A model generated the notes under the pieces. The model ran no database searches. It was not told the origin of the DNA and was given only the letters and a program-made list of their open reading frames with translations. From positions 1-48,818 of the forward strand of contig NZ_JAALJI010000038.1 in the NCBI RefSeq assembly GCF_011064595.1: a stretch of 48,818 nucleotides of DNA. The letters run 5' to 3'. How positions within the stretch are numbered: the first letter of the stretch is position 1; the number at the start of each line of letters is the position of its first letter. This stretch comes from Paludisphaera soli (GTDB lineage Bacteria > Planctomycetota > Planctomycetia > Isosphaerales > Isosphaeraceae). A program made the position numbers and the translations under genes. Shown here piece by piece: positions 1,506 through 42,483 of the stretch.

Positions 1506-1548
1506 GGCCGGGCGCCTCCGGGACGAGGGGTCTCGATCTCCAAAATCC

Positions 1549-1743
1549 TTCCCCCCTGGCGGGGGAAGGTGGCCGAAGGCCGGATGAGGGGGGGACGAGC
1601 GAGAAGGCCGCCGGAGTCGCAGCAAGGTCTTCCCGGGGCCGACGGCTGTGCGGGCCGAGCTTTGAAATCCGAAGCTCCCCGCGCGCGTCCCCCCCCTCAT
1701 CTGGCCGCTCCGCGGTCTGTCTTCCCCCGCCAGGGGGGAAGAC
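1549..1743. repeat. Interspersed hairpin repeat, copy 1 (left and right modules)
   Basis: A left module at 1549-1596 contains two back-to-back hairpins: TTCCCCCCTGGCGGGGGAA and GGCC-GAA-GGCC, then GGATGAGGGGGGG. A less conserved spacer of about 100 bases (beginning ACGAGCGAGAAGG) leads to a right module at 1690-1743 that is an inverted variant, ending in TCTTCCCCCGCCAGGGGGGAAGAC. The same layout recurs at 18566-18762 and 39363-39558. The copy lies just upstream of grpE and downstream of tpx. It has no coding capacity of its own and looks like a REP/MITE-type non-autonomous repeat. Confidence 0.85.
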
Positions 1744-16091: not shown

Positions 16092-16910
16092 ATGCGAGAC
16101 CACAACAAGGCGTTCTGCCGCCTTGTGGCCGAGACCTTCGACTGCCCGACGCCCATCGTGGAGTTCGGCTCGTACCAGGTCGAGGGCCAGGAAGGCTACG
16201 CCAACCTCCGGGGGATGTTCGCGGGCAAGGCGTTCATCGGCTGCGACATGCGGCCCGGCCCGGGCGTCGACCGCATCGAGGACGTCTCGGCCGTCGGCAT
16301 GCCCGACGAGTCCGCCGGCGCGGTCCTCTGCATCGAGACCTTCGAACACGTCTTCGAGGTCCGCCGCGCGTTCGACGAGGTCTACCGGATCCTCAAGCCG
16401 GGGGGGGTCTTCGTGATCACCTCGCCCCTGAACTTCCGGATCCACGCCTACCCGGACGACTACTGGCGGATGACCCCGAGCTGCCTCAAGCGCATGATGC
16501 GGCCGTACGACGCCCGCGTCGTCGGCTCGCAGGGCTTCCGGGCGTTCCCGCACTCGGTGATGGCGGTCGGCGTCAAGGCCCCCGCCCCGGCCGACTTCCA
16601 GGCCCGCGCCCGCGCCCTGATCGCCGGCTACGACCGCTGCCTGGCCGAGTTCGAGGCCGCGATCCCGCTCCGCCAGAAGCTCCGCAGGCGGCTGGGCATG
16701 CTGTATCGCTCCAAGGGCGAGCGGCAGGCGGCGGCCGGCTACTACCACACCGAGTTCAGCGTGGAGACCGGCGCCGAGTCCGTCGCGGCGACGTCCGCCG
16801 CGGCCGCGCGGGAGCACCGCGTCGACCCGGCCGCGAACGGCTCCCCCATCCCCATGATCCACGACACCAAGGGCCAAGGCGCATGGCGGCATCCCTCGAT
16901 CGCGTACTGA
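16092..16910 (+). CDS. Class I SAM-dependent methyltransferase (type 11)
   Basis: The 272-residue protein has the Rossmann methyltransferase core: motif I as IVEFGSYQVEG (about 22-32), an acidic end of strand 2 in IGCDMRPGPGVDRIEDV, the type 11 signature CIETFEHVFEVRRAFDEVYRILKPGGVFVITSP. The region after about residue 170 is helical, and its tail is alanine-rich. No substrate can be read from the sequence; the PDDYWRMTP loop after the core is typical of methyltransferases in glycan-synthesis clusters. A strong Shine-Dalgarno (GGAGGAG) precedes the ATG. The last 28 bases overlap the next gene, which points to translational coupling. Confidence 0.88.
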   Translation: MRDHNKAFCRLVAETFDCPTPIVEFGSYQVEGQEGYANLRGMFAGKAFIGCDMRPGPGVDRIEDVSAVGMPDESAGAVLCIETFEHVFEVRRAFDEVYRILKPGGVFVITSPLNFRIHAYPDDYWRMTPSCLKRMMRPYDARVVGSQGFRAFPHSVMAVGVKAPAPADFQARARALIAGYDRCLAEFEAAIPLRQKLRRRLGMLYRSKGERQAAAGYYHTEFSVETGAESVAATSAAAAREHRVDPAANGSPIPMIHDTKGQGAWRHPSIAY

Positions 16911-18544
16911 TCCTCGGCCTCGACGGCGCCACCTGGAGCGTCCTCGACCCGATGCGGCGTCGCGGCGTCATGCCGAACCTCGACGCCCTGCTGGGCTCCG
17001 CGGCGCACGGCGTCCTGACCTCGGTCGAGCCGCCGGTGACGACCGCCGCGTGGACCTCGATGTCCACCGGCTGCACGCCGTCGCGGCACGGGGTCTTCGA
17101 CCACCGCTACTACGACGCCGCCGCCGACCGGATGAAGGTCAACCACTCCGGCCGCGTCCGCACGCCGAACCTCTGGCGGATCCTGTCCGACGCCGGCCGG
17201 TCGGCCGCCTGCCTGAACGTCCCCGGCCTGTTCCCGCCCCCCCGGCTGCCGAACGGCGTGGTCGTCTCGGGCATGGACGCGCCCCACCTCGACGCCGCCC
17301 TGCAGGGCTCGCCCGAGTTCGCGGCGAGGCTCAAGGCCGAGGTCCCGGACTACACCCTCCGCTACTTCTGGAAACGCGCGCCCCAGACCCTCGACGAGCT
17401 GCGGACCAACGCCGGGCTCACCGTCGAGAGCTTCCGGGGACGCGCCGAGGGGGGCCTGCTGGCCGACCGGATGTTCCCGGACTGGTCCGCGCTCATGGTC
17501 CAGTTCCAGAACCTGGACCCGTTCCAGCACCGGGCCTGGCGCTACCTGAACGTGGACGAGACGGGGATCGACGACCCCGAGTGGAACGCCGCCGCCGAGG
17601 GGGTGATGCGCGGCCTCGACCGCGCGATCGGCCTGCTCGGCGAGCTGGCCTCGGCGCGAGGGGCGGCCGTCCTGGTCGTCAGCGACCACGGCTTCGGCCC
17701 CTGCGCGGGCCGGATCGACGTCAACCAGATCCTGCTCGACGCCGGGGTCGCCCAGCGGGCGGGGCTGGGCCGCAAGCTGATCCGTCGCGGCCGCCAGGCC
17801 GTCGACCGGCTGCGGGTCTGGGAGGCCAAGCGGCACGACCCGACGGCGCGTTCGGCGTCGTTCGACCAATCGGTCGCCGGCTCGTTCCCGTTCGACTGGT
17901 CGCGGACCCTGGCGTTCGCCCCGCACCAGGACACGGCGGCGATGGTCTACGTGAACTCGCCCTCGCGACGGGGCTCCACCCGCCACGCCGCCCCCCTGTT
18001 CACCCCCCGCGAGATCGACGAGGCCCGCGGCGCCGCCGCCGACGCCCTCGCCGAGGCCCGCCACCCGGAGACCGGCCGGCCGCTCTTCCCGAAGATCATC
18101 GACACCGCCGAGGCCTACGGCGTCGACCCCGCGCGGGAGGGCTACCCCGACCTCATCGCCCTGCCCGACGCCCCCTTCTGGGTCCGCACCAAGCTGGGCT
18201 CGTCCGGCGCCGGCAGCTGGGTCCACGCCGACCCGAACCTCACCGGCACCCACCGCCCCGAAGGCGTCGTGGCCCTCGCCGGCGCGGGCCTCGCGCCCGG
18301 CCGGAACCTCCACGGCCGCCTGATCGACGTCGCGCCGACGGTCCTGGACCTCCTGGGCCTCCCCGTGCCGTCGTTCATGGAAGGCTCGCCCATCGGCGCC
18401 GCCCGCGCGGTCGGGTCCGCCAGCCGCCTCGACCGGCCGGCCAAGCAGCCGCTCAACGGCCCCCACCAGCCCGCCTTCGAGTACACCGACGAGGAGCAGG
18501 CCATCCTCGAACAGCGGCTCGCCGACCTCGGCTACCTGGAGTGA
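16883..18544 (+). CDS. Alkaline-phosphatase-superfamily phosphodiesterase/phosphatase
   Basis: The 553-residue protein belongs to the type I phosphodiesterase / nucleotide pyrophosphatase branch. The first metal ligand is Asp14 in LILGLDGATW, and the nucleophile region is PPVTTAAWTSMSTG with Thr53 or Thr54, followed by CTPSRHGVFDH; later VVSDHGFGP supplies the Asp-His metal pair, and THRPEGVVALAG and DVAPTVLDLLGL form the usual C-terminal end. It lacks a signal peptide, as do many such proteins found beside polysaccharide or glycolipid genes. The ATG at 16883 lies inside the methyltransferase gene (28-base overlap); the longer frame to 15989 is antisense-like sequence over that gene and was dropped. 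Substrate unknown. Confidence 0.88.
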   Translation: MAASLDRVLILGLDGATWSVLDPMRRRGVMPNLDALLGSAAHGVLTSVEPPVTTAAWTSMSTGCTPSRHGVFDHRYYDAAADRMKVNHSGRVRTPNLWRILSDAGRSAACLNVPGLFPPPRLPNGVVVSGMDAPHLDAALQGSPEFAARLKAEVPDYTLRYFWKRAPQTLDELRTNAGLTVESFRGRAEGGLLADRMFPDWSALMVQFQNLDPFQHRAWRYLNVDETGIDDPEWNAAAEGVMRGLDRAIGLLGELASARGAAVLVVSDHGFGPCAGRIDVNQILLDAGVAQRAGLGRKLIRRGRQAVDRLRVWEAKRHDPTARSASFDQSVAGSFPFDWSRTLAFAPHQDTAAMVYVNSPSRRGSTRHAAPLFTPREIDEARGAAADALAEARHPETGRPLFPKIIDTAEAYGVDPAREGYPDLIALPDAPFWVRTKLGSSGAGSWVHADPNLTGTHRPEGVVALAGAGLAPGRNLHGRLIDVAPTVLDLLGLPVPSFMEGSPIGAARAVGSASRLDRPAKQPLNGPHQPAFEYTDEEQAILEQRLADLGYLE

Positions 18545-18565
18545 TCCGGAAGCGGGACCCCAAAG

Positions 18566-18762
18566 CCTTCCCCCCGCGCGGGGGAAGGTGGCCCGCAGGG
18601 CCGGATGAGGGGGAAGACGAGCGAGAAGGCCGATGGAGCCCTGATGAGGCTCGCCGAGGCCGTCGGTCATGCGGGCCGGACGTCGACTCCCATGCTCCCC
18701 GCGAGCGTCCCCCCTCATCGGGACGCTGCGCGGTCTGTCTTCCCCCGCGAGGGGGGAAGACC
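18566..18762. repeat. Interspersed hairpin repeat, copy 2
   Basis: The left module carries TTCCCCCCGCGCGGGGGAA and GGCCC-GCA-GGGCC, then GGATGAGGGGG; the right module ends GTCTGTCTTCCCCCGCGA and GGGGGGAAGACC. The spacer begins with the same ACGAGCGAGAAGGCCG as copy 1. Compared with copy 1, loops and stem bases have changed on both sides so that pairing is kept. This copy fills the gap between the convergent phosphatase and Fur genes and lacks the third, inverted module. Confidence 0.85.
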
Positions 18763-18784
18763 ATTGCTCCCCACCACGTCGACT

Positions 18785-19285
18785 TCAGATCAGGTCCAGC
18801 CGCCGGCGGGGGCTGTGGGAGCGGTCGCAGGACGAGCAGACGCCCTCGATGAGGAAGCGGTGGCCCGTGGCGCGGAAGCCGTGGGCCCGGCTGACCTCGT
18901 CGCGGAGCTTGAGCAGGTCGTCGTTGCGGAATTCGACCACGCGGTGGCAGACCGTGCAGTGCAGGTGGTCGTGCGCGGGATAGCCGTAGTCGTGCTCGTA
19001 GGCGGAGCGGTTGGTCAGGCGAAGCTCGCGCAGGAGGCCGGCCTCGACCAGCAGGCGGAGGGTCCGGTAAACCGTGGATCGGCTGATGGCGTGACCGGCG
19101 TCGTGCAGGTCGCGGACCAACTCGTCGGCGTCGAAGTGCTTGTGCGAGCTGTAGATGTGCCGGACCAGGGTGCGCCGGGGATCGGTGAGCTTCTCGCCCC
19201 GGATCTCGAGGAACTCGCGGAACTTGTCCTCGGGCGATTCCTTGACGTCCAGCGGGGTCAAGTCGTCGGCTTGAGTCTTCGCCAC
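18785..19285 (-). CDS. Fur-family metal-dependent transcriptional repressor
   Basis: The 166-residue protein has a charged N-terminal extension, a winged helix (about 30-95: GEKLTDPRRTLVRHIY, then SRSTVYRTLRLLVEAGLL) and the dimerisation domain with metal ligands: HDHLHCTVCHRVVEF and CSSC near the C-terminus, the two CXXC pairs that hold structural zinc. Fur, Zur and PerR cannot be told apart by eye. Start is GTG at 19285 with GGAAGGAC upstream. The gene has its own promoter (19363-19391), and an inverted repeat straddles its -10, suggesting autoregulation. The nearest other minus-strand gene encodes a His/Asp-rich secreted protein. Confidence 0.9.
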   Translation of the reverse strand: MAKTQADDLTPLDVKESPEDKFREFLEIRGEKLTDPRRTLVRHIYSSHKHFDADELVRDLHDAGHAISRSTVYRTLRLLVEAGLLRELRLTNRSAYEHDYGYPAHDHLHCTVCHRVVEFRNDDLLKLRDEVSRAHGFRATGHRFLIEGVCSSCDRSHSPRRRLDLI

Positions 19286-37900: not shown

Positions 37901-39338
37901 CGAGGCCAAACCCGAAGACGAGCGGCTCGCCGCCGCCCGCGAGGTCGTCGCCCTCCGCCCCGAGGACGACGCCGTGGCCGCCGAGTTGATCGACGCGATC
38001 ACCCCCCGCACGCCCCCGGCGCTGGCCGGCGGGCTCGTCGAGGCGCTGGCCAAGGGCCGCGCCCGCGAGGCCGGCAAGGCCCTGCTCGACGGCCTGCCGC
38101 GCATGACCCCCGGCACCCGCTCGATCGCCGTCCGGGCGCTGCTCGGCCGGGCCGACTGGACGGCCGACCTGCTCGCCGCCGTGGACGACGGCCGGCTCGG
38201 CTGGGACGACTTCACGCTCGACCAGAAGCAGGCCCTGGCCGCCCACCCGGACAAGGCCCTGGCCGAGAAGGCCGCCATGCTCATCGCCCGCGGCGGCGCC
38301 CTGCCCGACGCCGACCGCCAGGCGGTCGTCGAACAGCTCATGAAGGTCGTCCTCGAAGGGGGCGACGCGGCGCACGGCAAGAAGGTGTTCGTCGAGCAGT
38401 GCGCCAAGTGCCACAAGCACGGCGGCGAGGGGGGGAACGTCGGCCCCGACCTCAGCGGCATGGCGTCGCACCCCCGCTCCGAGCTGCTCGTCCACATCGT
38501 CGACCCCAGCCGGAGCGTCGAGGGGAACTTCGTCCAGTACACGCTCGCCACGACCGACGGCCGGGTCATCAACGGCCTGATGGCCTCGGAGTCCAAGACG
38601 GCCGTCGAGCTGCTCGACGCCGACGCCAAGACCCACGTCGTCCTCCGCGAGGACATCGACGAGATGGTCGCCTCCAAGAAGTCGCTCATGCCCGAGGGCT
38701 TCGAGAAGCAGATGAAGGAGGGCGACCTCACGGATCTCCTCGCCTTCCTCACCCAGCGCGGCAAGTACCTGCCGCTGGACCTCCGCAAGGCCGCCACCGT
38801 CGTCACGACGAAGGGGATGTTCTACGCCTCCGAGTCCCCGGTGGAGCGGCTGATCTTCCCCGACTGGGGCCCGAAGGAGTTCCAGGGCGTGCCGTATCAG
38901 CTGATCGACCCCAAGGGGGACCGCACGCCGAACGCGATCCTGCTCAACGGGCCGATCGGCGAGGTCCCCCCGAAGATGCCCCGGGCCGTCGAGCTGGACT
39001 GCAACGCGCCGGCGAAGGCGATCCACATCCTGGGGGGCGTGGGCGGCTGGGCCTACAACGGCGGCGAGCCGCGCAAGACGGTCTCGATGATCGTCCGGCT
39101 GCACTACGCCGACGGCAAGACGGAGGACCACCCGCTGCTCGACGGCGTGCACCTGGCGGACTACATCCGCCCGATCGACGTCCCCGGCTCCGATCTGGCC
39201 TTCACCCTCCGCGGTCGCCAGCTCCGCCACGTCCGGATCGCCCCCGAGCGGTCCGAGGCCGTGGCGAAGATCGAGCTGGTCAAGGGGGACGACCAGACCG
39301 CCCCGGTCGTCATGGCCGTGACCGTGGAGACCGAGTAA
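34998..39338 (+). CDS. Planctomycete fusion protein: ThuA, membrane-bound dehydrogenase, HEAT region, cytochrome c domain
   Basis: The 1,446-residue secreted protein has a signal peptide (residues 1-27). ThuA-like domain: about 33-230 (IRVLFLGDRGHHAPADRAAQ, then GYDALLLYANID, then GGGFAPIHCAS). A PQQ/NHL-type beta-propeller dehydrogenase domain follows at about 285-640 (GFEASLFAAEPEIAKPICMAW, WIAESFDYP). An alanine-rich HEAT-like region runs from about 650 to 1100. Next is the planctomycete haem-binding domain with CAKCH at 1135-1139, NVGPDLSGMASHPRSELL and DPSRSVEGNFVQYT. A C-terminal beta-rich domain of about 170 residues follows. Families of this type are numerous in planctomycetes and are assumed to oxidise sugars or related polymers; the substrate is unknown. 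Confidence 0.92.
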   Translation: MLRLLLLLASSAATAALAAASAGTRADADSPPIRVLFLGDRGHHAPADRAAQIAPVLALRGVDVTYTEDVASALKPETLKGYDALLLYANIDEIAPEQAKALVDYVEAGGGFAPIHCASFCFRNAPEVVALIGGQFKSHETGEFETTVVDAEHPIMKGLAPFKTWDETYVHEKHNAEGRTVLQLRDQEPYTWTRDQGKGRVFYTAYGHDSRTWEQPGFQALLERGLRWAAGKPVFDSRPTVASGLKPAAVVDAGSDIPNYLPSKKWGVQGEPYRSMPKPLSPEDSLKHLILPKGFEASLFAAEPEIAKPICMAWDHKGRLWIAESFDYPNTKQRRGSEGRDRIKVCEDRDGDGKAETFTIFAEGLNIPTSLCYYDGGLIVLQAPDTLFLKDTDGDGKADVRKVLFTGWGTEDTHAGPSNLRYGPDGWIWGIVGYSAFDGEVGGEKHQFGQGIFRFKPDGSKLEFLRSTSNNSWGLGFSEEGLTFASTANGCPSVFLGVPNRYYESVKGWSPSVLRMIAATNNIYPETDKVRQVDHHGGFTAAAGHALYTARAYPAPYWNKTAFVAEPTGHLLATFTLQPKGSDFASYNGWNLVSSDDEWTAPIMAEVGPDGNVWVIDWYNYIVQHNPTPQGFQTGKGNAYETPLRDKTHGRIHRIAWKDAPKAAWKPLDPADPDGLVAALGSDNQFWRLHAQRLLTERGKADVVPKLLALAADPKVDAVGLNPGAIHALWTLRGLNALADAEARAAAVAALKHPSAGVRRAALQVLPRDADGVKALLAAGSLADEDAQVRLAALLALADVPTDPAAGAGIAEALVAGLGARDRWLTDAATSAAAAHAEPFLKALAATKAGGEPSPTLLAVVERVAEHHARGGPAETVGGLLTAFGERADDPFVRAIAGRVVLGEAKGWPADRKPTLDAATEKALAGLLEKLPADARGRLVFLGSRWGSEAMKEASEAVAKTMLATIADEAKPEDERLAAAREVVALRPEDDAVAAELIDAITPRTPPALAGGLVEALAKGRAREAGKALLDGLPRMTPGTRSIAVRALLGRADWTADLLAAVDDGRLGWDDFTLDQKQALAAHPDKALAEKAAMLIARGGALPDADRQAVVEQLMKVVLEGGDAAHGKKVFVEQCAKCHKHGGEGGNVGPDLSGMASHPRSELLVHIVDPSRSVEGNFVQYTLATTDGRVINGLMASESKTAVELLDADAKTHVVLREDIDEMVASKKSLMPEGFEKQMKEGDLTDLLAFLTQRGKYLPLDLRKAATVVTTKGMFYASESPVERLIFPDWGPKEFQGVPYQLIDPKGDRTPNAILLNGPIGEVPPKMPRAVELDCNAPAKAIHILGGVGGWAYNGGEPRKTVSMIVRLHYADGKTEDHPLLDGVHLADYIRPIDVPGSDLAFTLRGRQLRHVRIAPERSEAVAKIELVKGDDQTAPVVMAVTVETE

Positions 39339-39362
39339 ACCAAGCGGGCCGGCGACGTCATG

Positions 39363-39558
39363 CCTTCCCCCCTGGCGGGGGAAGGTGGCCGAAGGCCGGA
39401 TGGAGGGGGGACGAGCGAGACGTCCGTCGGAGCTTCCGAAGCGACCTCCCGAGGCCGACGGCCGTGCAAGCGGGCTTCATAGGCCCACGCTCCCCGCGGG
39501 CGTCCCCCCCTCATCTGACCGCTGCGCGGTCTGCCTTCCCCCGCCAGGGGGGAAGACC
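39363..39558. repeat. Interspersed hairpin repeat, copy 3 (left and right modules)
   Basis: The left module has the same TTCCCCCCTGGCGGGGGAA and GGCC-GAA-GGCC hairpins as copy 1. The right module ends GTCTGCCTTCCCCCGCCA then GGGGGGAAGACC. The spacer shares scattered blocks with copies 1 and 2 (GACGAGCGAGA near its start, CCGACGGC and CTCCCCGC later). It starts 25 bases after the stop codon of the dehydrogenase fusion gene. Confidence 0.85.
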
Positions 39559-39587
39559 GTTTTCGGCCGACGCCTCCTCGCGACGTC

Positions 39588-39650
39588 CGCCTTGATGATC
39601 CCCCTCATCCGGCCCTGAAGGGCCACCTTCCCCCACCGGGGGGGAGGGAA
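39588..39650. repeat. Interspersed hairpin repeat, copy 3, inverted left module
   Basis: It begins CGCCTTGAT, then CCCCCTCATCCGGCCC, the stem-loop GGCCCT-GA-AGGGCC, and the stem CTTCCCCCACCGGGGGGGAGG. The distance from the right module (about 30 bases) and the order match copy 1. It ends 25 bases before the start of the GH2 gene and would lie in its 5' leader if transcription begins upstream. Confidence 0.82.
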
Positions 39651-39674
39651 GATGTTGAATCGCAGAATCGTGAG

Positions 39675-41924
39675 ATGGAAAGGATCGACCTCGTGAGACG
39701 CCTCCTCTTCGGCGTGCTGTTGGCCGCCGCGCCGGCGATCGCCCTCGCCGACGACGCCCCGGCCTGGCAGCCCGCACAGGCCGCCCTCAAGACCCGATGG
39801 GCCGACCAGGTCGACCCGGCGACCGTGCATTCCGAGTACCCCCGCCCGCAGCTCGTCCGCGAGCGCTGGGTCAACCTGAACGGCCTGTGGGACCACGCCG
39901 TGCGGCCGTCGGCCGAGGCGCGGCCCGAGGCGTTCGACGGGCCGATCCTCGTGCCGTTCCCGATCGAGTCGGCCCTGAGCGGCGTCAAGAAGGCGGTGAA
40001 GCCCGACGAGACGCTCTGGTATCGCCGGACGTTCGACCTGCAGGAGCCCGCCGCAGGCACGCGGTTCCTGCTCCACTTCGGCGCCGTCGACTGGGCGGCG
40101 ACCGTCACCGTCAACGGCAAGGAGGTCGGCTCGCACAAGGGGGGCTTCGACCCCTTCACGTTCGACGTGACCGACGCGCTCGACTTCTCGAAGGAGGCCC
40201 AGGAGGTCGTCGTCGCGGTGACCGACCCGACCGACACCGGCAGCCAGCCGCGCGGCAAGCAGGTCCTCAAGCCCGAAGGCATCTGGTACACGGCCGTCAC
40301 CGGGATCTGGCAGACGGTCTGGCTGGAGCCGGTCCCGGCGACGCGGATCGACGCGCTCAAGATCGTCACCGACGTGGATGCGAAGGAAGTCCGCGTCACC
40401 CCGACGGTCGTGGGCGAGCCCGGCGCGGCGGTCCGCGTGCTGGTCTTCGACGGCGACGACGTGATCGCCGAGGCGACCGGCCCGGCCGGCGAGCCGATCA
40501 AGATCGCGATCGCCGAGCCCAAGCTGTGGGGGCCCGACTCCCCCTTCCTCTACGACGTCAAGGCGACCGTGGGAGGCGACGGCGGCGACGCGGTGGGCTC
40601 GTACTTCGGCATGCGGAAGATCGCGATCGCCAAGGACGAGGCCGGCGTGCTCCGGCTGATGCTGAACGACAGGCCGCTCTTCCAGTACGGCCCGCTCGAC
40701 CAGGGCTGGTGGCCCGACGGCCTCTACACGGCCCCGACCGACGAGGCGCTCAAGTACGACCTGGACGTGACGAAGCAGCTCAACTTCAACATGATCCGCA
40801 AGCACGTGAAGGTCGAGCCCGCGCGCTGGTACCGCTACTGCGACGAGATGGGGTTCCTCGTCTGGCAGGACATGCCCTCGGCCGACAACAAGACCGACGA
40901 GTCGAAGGAGCAGTTCGGCGTCGAGTGGAAGGCCGTGATCGACGCCCTGCACAACCACCCGTCGATCGTCATGTGGGTGCCGTTCAACGAGGGCTGGGGC
41001 CAGCACGACACCGAACGCGTCGTCGCCTGGACCAAGGAGTACGACCCGACCCGGCTGGTCAACAACGCAAGCGGCTGGACCGACAAGGGGGTGGGCGACG
41101 TCAACGACATGCACAACTACCCCGGCCCCGGCATGCCCGCCCTGGAGGAGAACCGCGCGGCGGTGCTCGGCGAGTTCGGCGGCCTCGGCCTGCCGACCGA
41201 AGGCCACGTCCTGCTGGAGAAGGGCAACTGGGGCTACGTCAGCTTCAAGAACCCCGAGGAGCTGGGCGCCCGCTACCTGGGGCTGGTCGACCGCCTGAAG
41301 GTGCTCGCCGGCCTGGGCCTGGGCGCCGCCGTGTACACGCAGACGACCGACGTGGAGATCGAGGTCAACGGCTTCATGACGTATGACCGCGAGGTGATGA
41401 AGTTCCCGGTCGAGGCCGTCGCCTCGGCCCACGCCGGGCTCTACGACGCGACCCAGCCGCTCAAGGCGAACGTCCTGATCCCCACCGCGCAGACCGCCCC
41501 GCAGGAGTGGAAGTACACGACCGACACGCCGGCCGAGGGCTGGCAAGGGCCCGACTTCGACGACTCCGGCTGGGCGACCGGCCCCGGCGGGTTCGGCACG
41601 AAGGAGACGCCGAATACGGTCATCGGCACCGAGTGGACCACGCCCGACATCCACATCCGCAAGGAGATCGAGCTGGCCGAGGCCCCGACCGGCCAGCTCT
41701 GGCTCTGGATCCACCACGACGACGAGGCCGAGGTCTTCCTCAACGGCGAGTCCGTCGCCAAGCTCGGCAAGTGGGTCACGAACTACGAGTTCGTCCCCCT
41801 CCCCGCCTCCGCCGCCCAGGCTTTGAAGGCCGGCCGGAACGTCGTCGCCGTCTCCTGCCACCAGGACAAGGGGGGCCAGTCGATCGACGTCGGCCTGATC
41901 GAGGTCAAGCAGGCCCAGCCCTGA
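39675..41924 (+). CDS. Secreted glycoside hydrolase family 2 protein (beta-galactosidase-like)
   Basis: The 749-residue protein has a signal peptide (cleaved near ALADD). It shows the GH2 order: N-terminal jelly roll (about 55-225: RERWVNLNGLWDHAV, WYRRTF, VTVNGKEVGSHKGGFDPFTFDVT), Ig-like domain (about 225-320), TIM barrel with GPLDQGWWPDGLYT, the acid/base Glu439 in WVPFNEGWGQ and nucleophile Glu500 in LGEFGG. A C-terminal beta-sandwich (about 600-745) may bind carbohydrate. GH2 enzymes cleave beta-galactosides, mannosides or glucuronides; which one is unclear. The GTG at 39693 has a better Shine-Dalgarno (AAAGGA) and a neater signal peptide, so it may be the true start. Confidence 0.9.
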   Translation: MERIDLVRRLLFGVLLAAAPAIALADDAPAWQPAQAALKTRWADQVDPATVHSEYPRPQLVRERWVNLNGLWDHAVRPSAEARPEAFDGPILVPFPIESALSGVKKAVKPDETLWYRRTFDLQEPAAGTRFLLHFGAVDWAATVTVNGKEVGSHKGGFDPFTFDVTDALDFSKEAQEVVVAVTDPTDTGSQPRGKQVLKPEGIWYTAVTGIWQTVWLEPVPATRIDALKIVTDVDAKEVRVTPTVVGEPGAAVRVLVFDGDDVIAEATGPAGEPIKIAIAEPKLWGPDSPFLYDVKATVGGDGGDAVGSYFGMRKIAIAKDEAGVLRLMLNDRPLFQYGPLDQGWWPDGLYTAPTDEALKYDLDVTKQLNFNMIRKHVKVEPARWYRYCDEMGFLVWQDMPSADNKTDESKEQFGVEWKAVIDALHNHPSIVMWVPFNEGWGQHDTERVVAWTKEYDPTRLVNNASGWTDKGVGDVNDMHNYPGPGMPALEENRAAVLGEFGGLGLPTEGHVLLEKGNWGYVSFKNPEELGARYLGLVDRLKVLAGLGLGAAVYTQTTDVEIEVNGFMTYDREVMKFPVEAVASAHAGLYDATQPLKANVLIPTAQTAPQEWKYTTDTPAEGWQGPDFDDSGWATGPGGFGTKETPNTVIGTEWTTPDIHIRKEIELAEAPTGQLWLWIHHDDEAEVFLNGESVAKLGKWVTNYEFVPLPASAAQALKAGRNVVAVSCHQDKGGQSIDVGLIEVKQAQP

Positions 41925-42420: not shown

Positions 42421-42483
42421 CGCCTTGATGGTCCCCCACATCCGGCCCTTCGGGCCACCTCCCCCCACCGGGGGGGTGAAGGA
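42421..42483. repeat. Interspersed hairpin repeat, copy 4 (single inverted left module)
   Basis: This module again starts CGCCTTGAT and carries CCCCCACATCCGGCCC, the stem-loop GGCCC-TTC-GGGCC, and the stem CTCCCCCCACCGGGGGGG. The left and right modules of the larger copies are absent, so the inverted left module can exist alone. It lies between the 5' end of the DUF6678-like gene and the 3' end of the FG-GAP gene. Confidence 0.8.

Follow-up and report, generated by a model that had tools for sequence, protein, structure and literature searches.

Intergenic double-hairpin repeats in Paludisphaera soli and their apparent link to short DUF559 nuclease genes

Double-hairpin modules in four intergenic gaps

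The window analyzed here is the whole of contig C130 (48,818 nt) of the 7.97-Mb draft genome of Paludisphaera soli (G000). Four gaps between its genes contain nine double-hairpin modules of ~50 nt, which are recognized by a covariance model of the module (R1) with E-values from 4.5e-16 to 7.5e-13; R1 was built in part from the window copies themselves, and its tenth-best match in the window has an E-value of 0.05. On re-inspection, repeats are present at all four positions named in a preliminary description of this DNA, and inverted-repeat listing, folding and R1 are concordant on these loci. A scan of the window against Rfam at gathering thresholds yielded no matches.

The first locus, a 295-bp composite on the plus strand (1547–1841), lies in the gap between predicted genes 783–1505 and 1846–2376, both on the minus strand. 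It consists of module A at the left end (1548–1596, plus strand; hairpin 1, hairpin 2 and a GGATGAGGGGG tail; 69.7 bits with R1), a spacer, module B on the minus strand (1688–1741; 66.7 bits), which is the right end of an A–B' element, and module C, also on the minus strand (1789–1839). The same A–spacer–B'–C' composite is found on the plus strand at 39363–39648, between plus-strand predicted genes that end at 39338 and start at 39675, with A at 39364–39412 (plus), B at 39502–39555 (minus) and C at 39596–39647 (minus). The locus at 18566–18762 (plus strand) is an A–B' element of ~196 bp (A, 18567–18617, plus; B, 18706–18759, minus) between the convergent predicted genes 16883–18544 (plus) and 18785–19285 (minus), and a solitary module C occupies 42429–42479 on the minus strand. 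All these modules are identified by R1.

The order left, right, inverted left given in the preliminary description holds, but the “inverted left” module is not plain left, so that three kinds of module have to be distinguished. A (“left”) and B (“right”) are the two non-identical inverted ends of the ~196-bp element, and C (“inverted left”) has a core as in A and a different inner tail (reverse complement of CGCCTTGATGGT). The A–B'–C' order also occurs outside the window, at C110:510443–510730 and, with an atypical A, at C101:68021–68317.

In each module, hairpin 1 (CTTCCCCC–5 nt–GGGGGAAG) is followed by hairpin 2 and then by the tail GATGAGGGGG (module tail, GATGAGGG); the outer boundary of the element is about AACGG[CT]CTTCCCC. 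Hairpin 2 reads GGCCC-GAA-GGGCC in A and GACCGC-GCA-GCGGTC or GACCCC-GGGGTC in B. Across the genus, 104 distinct tail-inward pairs provide 196 parsable modules; in 190 of these, hairpin 2 retains a stem of 4 bp or more, and the two arms are identical at hairpin 2 in none of 94 pairs. The fact that the arms are never identical there, with the stems nevertheless kept, points to the local hairpin, and not a long palindrome, as the conserved feature. Folded as RNA, the stretch 39355–39655 has a z-score of −6.95, and 18555–18770, folded as DNA, of −4.77.

Abundance and placement in the genome

As anticipated from the four window loci, the repeat is present in many copies: the covariance search detects at least 150 modules in this genome, all 150 scored candidates (the best 150 of 16,756 first-look candidates) being modules. 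Genome-wide, the core pattern GAAGNNNGNCCN{2,9}GGNCNGATGAGGGGG occurs 65 times in forward and 51 times in reverse orientation, and the pattern read backwards does not occur; a profile hidden Markov model gives 100 matches, 98 of them near full length, in 1.196 Mb and none in the reversed sequence. Twenty systematically placed 20-kb stretches contain 19 modules, which extrapolates to ~380 per genome, with the copies being clumped. The density is uneven, from none in five stretches of C110 (20–440 kb, 100 kb sampled) to ~13 per 100 kb in C13 and C112, and is ~18 per 100 kb in the window.

Most modules form inverted pairs, with the tails facing inward. In the sampled contigs, the modules fall into 50 groups: 23 simple +− pairs, 11 larger arrays containing +−, a single −+ pair and 15 single modules. 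One array, L311 (G000:C118:26331–26701), comprises two successive module pairs with the similar junction sequence GGAAGAGATTCCGATCTCAACATC.

The intergenic location extends to the sampled contigs, where only one of the 50 groups overlaps a gene predicted by our custom script. For 41 groups in five whole contigs, both neighboring genes could be assigned; the gaps concerned are convergent in 18 cases, tandem in 20 and divergent in three, compared to 101, 364 and 105, respectively, among all 570 gaps of 30 nt or more in the same contigs. Convergent gaps are thus enriched (18/41 vs. 101/570, p = 3e-4). Groups in divergent gaps are fewer (3/41 vs. 105/570), non-significantly so in the same five contigs (p = 0.09); pooling of all groups gives p = 0.03 for this depletion, which we dropped in view of the like-for-like value.

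The preference for convergent gaps, along with the stable folds at 39355–39655 and 18555–18770, is compatible with fixed regulatory or structural repeats, i.e., immobile bidirectional terminators or protectors of mRNA 3' ends that are homogenized by gene conversion. The comparison with related genomes bears directly on this explanation.

Distribution and spread among related genomes

Each of six genomes of the genus contains at least 105 modules (148 in G247 and at least 150 in G249). In the family, 19 of 45 genomes have matches at 1e-5, the strongest one outside the genus with 57 matches and a best E-value of 4.7e-10, and in a phylum-wide sample searched with stricter filters, 3 of 246 genomes, P. 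soli itself included, have matches at 1e-6.

The gap orthologous to that at 39363 is devoid of modules in G246, G247 and G248 and contains a different, B...A' element in G250. In G249, this gap (L097, C85:21805–24087) holds 2.3 kb of other sequence, in which two matches to the module are weak (34.9 and 25.5 bits). Within L097, another double-hairpin family (CCCTCTCCC...GGGAGAGGG and GGGTGAGGGTCG) is observed, as well as ~1 kb of apparently internally repeated coding sequence. The gap orthologous to that at 18566 has no module in G246 and G248 and elements of its own in G247 and G249; in G250, the two genes are separated, with one module beside the left gene. The orthologous gaps are too diverged for insertion points to be read at the window loci.

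In a tree of 54 A–B' elements, the species labels require four changes, the minimum possible number, against a mean of 21.3 for shuffled labels. Of the 29 P. soli copies, 28 form a single clade (96/93), and the G247 element from the orthologous 18566 gap falls outside it; the sample was picked by similarity to the P. soli copies, and the bootstrap values are rough. The A–B' spacers group by species, as produced by proliferation within each species; gene conversion could give the same pattern.

These comparisons make fixed, immobile repeats quite improbable: at 39363 the orthologous gap has no module in three congeners and a different element in a fourth, and the spacers are species-specific without an evident need for their conservation, although the latter could also result from gene conversion.

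Short DUF559 genes are bracketed by modules

The preliminary description had found no transposase gene in the window, and indeed, whole-genome searches with PF01797 (Y1 transposases) and PF04480 (DUF559) give no matches on C130. Interspersed, multi-copy repeats with no transposase in the window would have to be moved in trans or to be domesticated.

A gene that might act in trans is found within the repeats themselves. We inspected three unusually wide module pairs of P. soli, and two of these, C143:137671–138221 and C143:260729–261304, enclose a DUF559 gene (for the former, PF04480 with an E-value of 4.7e-31), the third pair, on C79, having none. The gene-bearing element spans 551–631 bp in six simple cases, and DUF559 is the only open reading frame (ORF) seen in the simple brackets. 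A PF04480 search identifies 15 distinct genes in five of the six genomes of the genus. All nine short DUF559 genes (L324, L325, L326, L327, L329, L330, L331, L333, and L334) have modules to their left and right, no farther than ~155 nt from the domain match; seven brackets are simple +...− pairs, two (L329 and L333) include extra nested modules, and L334 is a broken copy at a contig edge. The base rate of such an arrangement is low, given that none of 779 predicted genes (876 kb) has modules within 200 nt of both ends. None of the six long DUF559 proteins (ORFs of 278–377 aa with a partial match) is bracketed, one having a module at the edge of its locus; this long group consists of the protein encoded at G000:C143:170470 and five others. 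A nuclease gene within the bracket is not what would be expected of a terminator.

The P. soli genes L325 (in the element C143:260729–261304) and L330 have a core module on both sides, and the tails allow a closer comparison with the window. The A tail of 1548–1596 is identical at 20 of 26 positions to the left end of L326, a DUF559 element of G246, and that of 18567–18617 at 20 of 26 to the left ends of L326 and L331, also from G246; the comparison covers two of the three A modules of the window, the tail of 39364–39412 being unparsed. Against the end of L325, the C tails match at 15 (1789–1839), 16 (39596–39647) and 18 (42429–42479) of 26 positions, and B tails reach 14–17 of 26 against the ends of DUF559 elements, the shuffled comparisons having a mean of 12.4, a 95th percentile of 14 and a maximum of 17. 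The A tails are closer to G246 elements than to those of P. soli, and there is no B-type end among the DUF559-element arms read. Judging from these alignments, gene-less and gene-bearing copies appear to have ends in common, C within the same genome, A most closely with a congener, and B not clearly.

The two kinds of copies do not always occur together. In G249, PF04480 has no match despite at least 150 modules and closely related copies, which implies that the enzyme of this genome has been lost, is unassembled or is a different one, and G247 encodes long DUF559 only.

Predicted fold of the DUF559 protein

As a stand-in for the proteins of the genus, the homolog from Mesorhizobium ciceri was modeled (mean pLDDT 74, three sequences). 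The nearest structure is that of a DUF559 protein, 3HRL (Z 15.7, 2.2 Å over 94 residues; 3.9e-31 by sequence), followed by the catalytic domain of the homing endonuclease I-Bth0305I (Z 11.6, 2.7 Å over 92). Vsr (1CW0) has a Z-score of 9.4 (3.9 Å over 112), level with two mitoribosomal chains of T. gondii (Z 9.7 and 9.1). The short DUF559 nuclease is accordingly predicted to adopt the fold of Vsr and the EDxHD homing endonucleases. Three aligned proteins and six copies from the genus read on the right strand retain the D and E-x-D residues around YxxDF and L-V-V-E-x-D-G, and by comparison with related nucleases we take these residues to be catalytic.

Double hairpins and DUF559 brackets in other bacteria

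A degenerate version of the core pattern is found in at least 120 stretches of other genomes. Among 86 matches in the first 80 loci, hairpin 1 has a stem of at least 6 bp in 72, hairpin 2 of at least 4 bp in 66, and both stems reach these lengths in 57; by record title, these loci come from alpha-, beta-, gamma- and deltaproteobacteria, Acidobacteria, Clostridia and Planctomycetota. In 20 distinct cores of equal length, 94% of the hairpin-2 cells are paired, compared to 77% in shuffled sets, and the covariation reaches 0.367 compared to 0.082 (0 of 500 shuffles) and to 0.047 at most in slid versions, with two of the five pairs changing on both sides. Hairpin 2 is thus under constraint to remain base-paired.

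Three DUF559 genes were detected among the 120 pattern loci, each having a module or a related hairpin no more than ~150 nt away on one side at least, and the M. ciceri gene (L220) alone having modules on both sides; the custom DUF559 profile included L329 read on the wrong strand. In a PF04480 search, 29 of 34 genomes, which were chosen for holding the core pattern, proved positive. Thirty DUF559 loci were fetched, four of which were untestable (ORF or flank beyond the locus), and among the 26 tested, 12 have an inverted repeat with a score of at least 13 across the gene, compared to one of 115 displaced windows. Further DUF559 loci from five of these genomes reach this score in 10 of 20 cases, and those from a plasmid collection (12 of 30 matches) in five of 12, compared to five of 200 random windows. 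These counts are non-independent, six positives being a single Caulobacter endophyticus family, and several positive scores come from the palindromic hairpin 1 alone, with ambiguous orientation (e.g., L355, L364, L367, L389, L398, and L399). The remaining 14 of 26, 10 of 20 and 7 of 12 loci, that of E. coli included, score below 13. With about half of the tested DUF559 loci lacking the repeat, stand-alone forms must exist.

The clearest brackets are a perfect 53-bp double-hairpin repeat around DUF559 in a Brevundimonas metagenome-assembled genome (MAG; L369), a 62-bp repeat with one mismatch in a Reyranellaceae MAG (L396), a 66-bp repeat with seven mismatches in Novosphingobium (L345), the end of which is found at six places on its plasmid, and a perfect 40-bp repeat in Pseudanabaena (L347), with its end at seven places on the plasmid. 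In L390, the hairpin-2 sequences of the two arms (GGCGGC...GCCGCC and GGCCGC...GCGGCC) have diverged by changes that are paired. Comparison of these sequences indicates that they vary among groups and that the double-hairpin grammar is kept. PADLOC returned weak matches only.

Evidence bearing on mobility

The most informative family is that of Caulobacter endophyticus (G315), where six copies of 513–530 bp (~525 bp) are located at six places with unrelated flanks. They have common ends, CCCTCTCTCTT–N–GAGAGAGGGAGGGGCCCGCCGC and its inverse, and homology stops at the hairpins. Five copies encode a 113-aa DUF559 protein; in the sixth, a short stretch close to the regular start is deleted, and an ORF of 122 aa is left that begins farther upstream. 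The dN/dS ratio is 0.13–0.23 in the 10 pairs formed by the five copies, and DUF559 is under purifying selection in this family. A TGA triplet is located within 6 nt before the left end in five of the six copies, which fits insertion, or survival, right after stop codons.

No target-site duplication beyond noise was detected in 104 elements with all offsets tried, although old copies could have lost one; in C. endophyticus, three of the six copies have 2-bp flank matches (AC, AT, and AA). Comparison of the element of Novosphingobium THN1 with strains ES2-1 and DSM 12444 reveals no clean empty site: the left gene is common, a different module is retained in ES2-1, and the flanks on the right are dissimilar. 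The Azospirillum L343 region is largely covered by seven records, in all of which the DUF559 gene is present, and for L346 and L347, no other record among the matches listed spans both flanks.

Y1 transposases and the repeats

Linkage of a copy to a RAYT (REP-associated tyrosine transposase), for which the preliminary description proposed to look, is not seen in the genus: none of the 14 Y1 loci detected with PF01797 in P. soli and five congeners has a module within ~1.5 kb. These loci represent 13 genes, two entries being one gene, and one locus stops at a contig end. There are no PF01797 matches in G247. The two Y1 genes of P. soli, L031 (C1:210251) and L032 (C154:171009), have no module nearby and are associated with palindromes (GTAGGGTGGGCACCGCCCACC, and CACGGGTTC...GAACCCGTG) of two families, both distinct from the module. 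These RAYT-like genes with palindromes of their own suggest that the genome harbors two additional, distinct REP families. In G248, the Y1 loci L122 and L124 reside in long inverted repeats (scores 78 and 41) with a CTCGCTGGCGCTTCGAGCTTGTA-like palindrome and are possibly Y1 elements of the type with terminal inverted repeats (TIRs).

One alternative is that the ends are moved in trans by a Y1 (RAYT/TIRYT) or another host transposase, DUF559 being cargo or an accessory nuclease, for which TnpB of IS605 offers a comparison. In this respect, it is relevant that the module-rich G249 has Y1 genes and no DUF559 matches. Nevertheless, we regard movement by such a transposase as unlikely, considering that modules are found near none of the 14 Y1 loci detected with PF01797, the transposase family searched, that any repeats flanking the Y1 genes belong to other families, that G247 combines 148 modules with the absence of Y1 matches, and that DUF559 is the sole ORF seen in the simple brackets and evolves under purifying selection in the Caulobacter family. 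In other bacteria, Y1 genes between long TIRs, some of these double-palindromic and some sharing GGGGWSAS, have been described (PMC3733652), and this precedent speaks for the Y1 alternative.

The repeats also resemble REPINs, hundreds of short, palindromic, intergenic and non-autonomous inverted pairs with one presumed single-gene partner. The inverted hairpin pairs, the hundreds of copies, the 3' intergenic sites and the GTGG that precedes hairpin 2 in A would all suit REPINs of the classical kind, the RAYT having disappeared or having diverged beyond recognition by PF01797. However, the GTAG-type tag at the foot of the REPIN hairpin is absent here, A ends having GTGG before hairpin 2 and B ends ACAG, so that GTRG is missing from this position in B modules (ACAGACC); a Y1 gene flanked by the same repeat, by which REPINs are recognized, is found at none of the 14 Y1 loci in the six genomes; and both RAYT-like genes have palindromes of their own. 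Moreover, the ends are tandem double hairpins, the partner suggested here is a Vsr-fold nuclease and not an IS200/IS605-like Y1 HUH transposase, and a REPIN origin leaves the DUF559 bracketing unexplained. We therefore find a classical REPIN family very improbable.

A putative DUF559-driven mobile element

Taken together, the window loci, i.e., the pairs, the composites and the solitary end, are probably non-autonomous copies of a mobile element, the full form of which carries a short DUF559 nuclease. We infer that DUF559 is the mobilizing enzyme. Under this scenario, the few intact copies would make the nuclease, which would recognize the two folded hairpins of each end, as single strands or cruciforms, and would cut or nick at the ends, at an intergenic target close to a stop codon, or at both. 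Repair would then leave a new copy in another gap, without a detectable target duplication. Internal deletion would reduce the element to two ends and a spacer, as in the window, and such derivatives would be copied too, solitary ends such as 42429–42479 being remnants. Copies that are harmless to genes would persist, often between convergent genes.

This organization is reminiscent of MITEs, which are small, gene-less, present in many copies, and have inverted ends resembling those of a larger element that does carry a gene, as is the case here, within the P. soli genome included. Unlike in MITEs, no target duplication is seen and the ends are hairpins of unequal sequence, and unlike in a classical insertion sequence, the enclosed ORF is DUF559 and not a DDE, HUH, serine or tyrosine transposase. 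The nearest non-DUF559 fold, that of the EDxHD homing endonuclease I-Bth0305I, also belongs to a selfish nuclease gene (PMC3943268). In contrast, DUF559 elements are intergenic and come with hairpin inverted repeats and gene-less relatives, and the DUF559 protein has no room for a long DNA-binding region such as that of I-Bth0305I (PMC3943268).

Intergenic palindromic repeats of this short kind are widespread among bacteria, and several large families lack a known enzyme. Similarly to the repeats described here, the CGTC-tagged REPs are palindromic repeats without a findable transposase, and, in the available text of the paper describing them, no enzyme is known for these repeats (PMC3733652). 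They have stems of 8–9 bp that begin with two A-T pairs, the CGTC tag and mostly a CCA tail (PMC3733652), a combination that is absent from the module consensus, where hairpin 1 is CTTCCCCC/GGGGGAAG. The rhizobial RIME elements, the function of which is called unknown in the available text of PMC2573895, come from another phylum. Rhizobial pattern loci show the double-hairpin grammar, with a DUF559 gene between such modules in M. ciceri, and hairpin 1 at these loci is mostly CCTTCTCCC and not CTTCCCCC.

Among open-licence papers, we found nothing that ties DUF559 to palindromic repeats or mobility. In Caulobacter, the SOS response that follows loss of a DNA methylase is reported to require the DUF559 protein VsrA (PMC12907096), which suggests that DUF559 proteins can damage chromosomes; a link of this protein to intergenic repeats was not found in the available text of that paper.

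We give about even chances to the broader proposal that these are representatives of an undescribed class of transposable elements, in which a lone DUF559 nuclease of the Vsr/EDxHD fold, encoded between tandem-hairpin inverted ends, would move itself and spread gene-less copies. DUF559 would then be the missing enzyme of many “orphan” palindromic repeats in Planctomycetota, Alphaproteobacteria, Cyanobacteria, Deinococcota, Clostridia and other groups. If this is the case, a family named for a domain of unknown function would gain a role, the origin of the orphan palindromic repeats would become directly testable, and there would exist a route of transposition that relies on a restriction- or homing-type nuclease alone.
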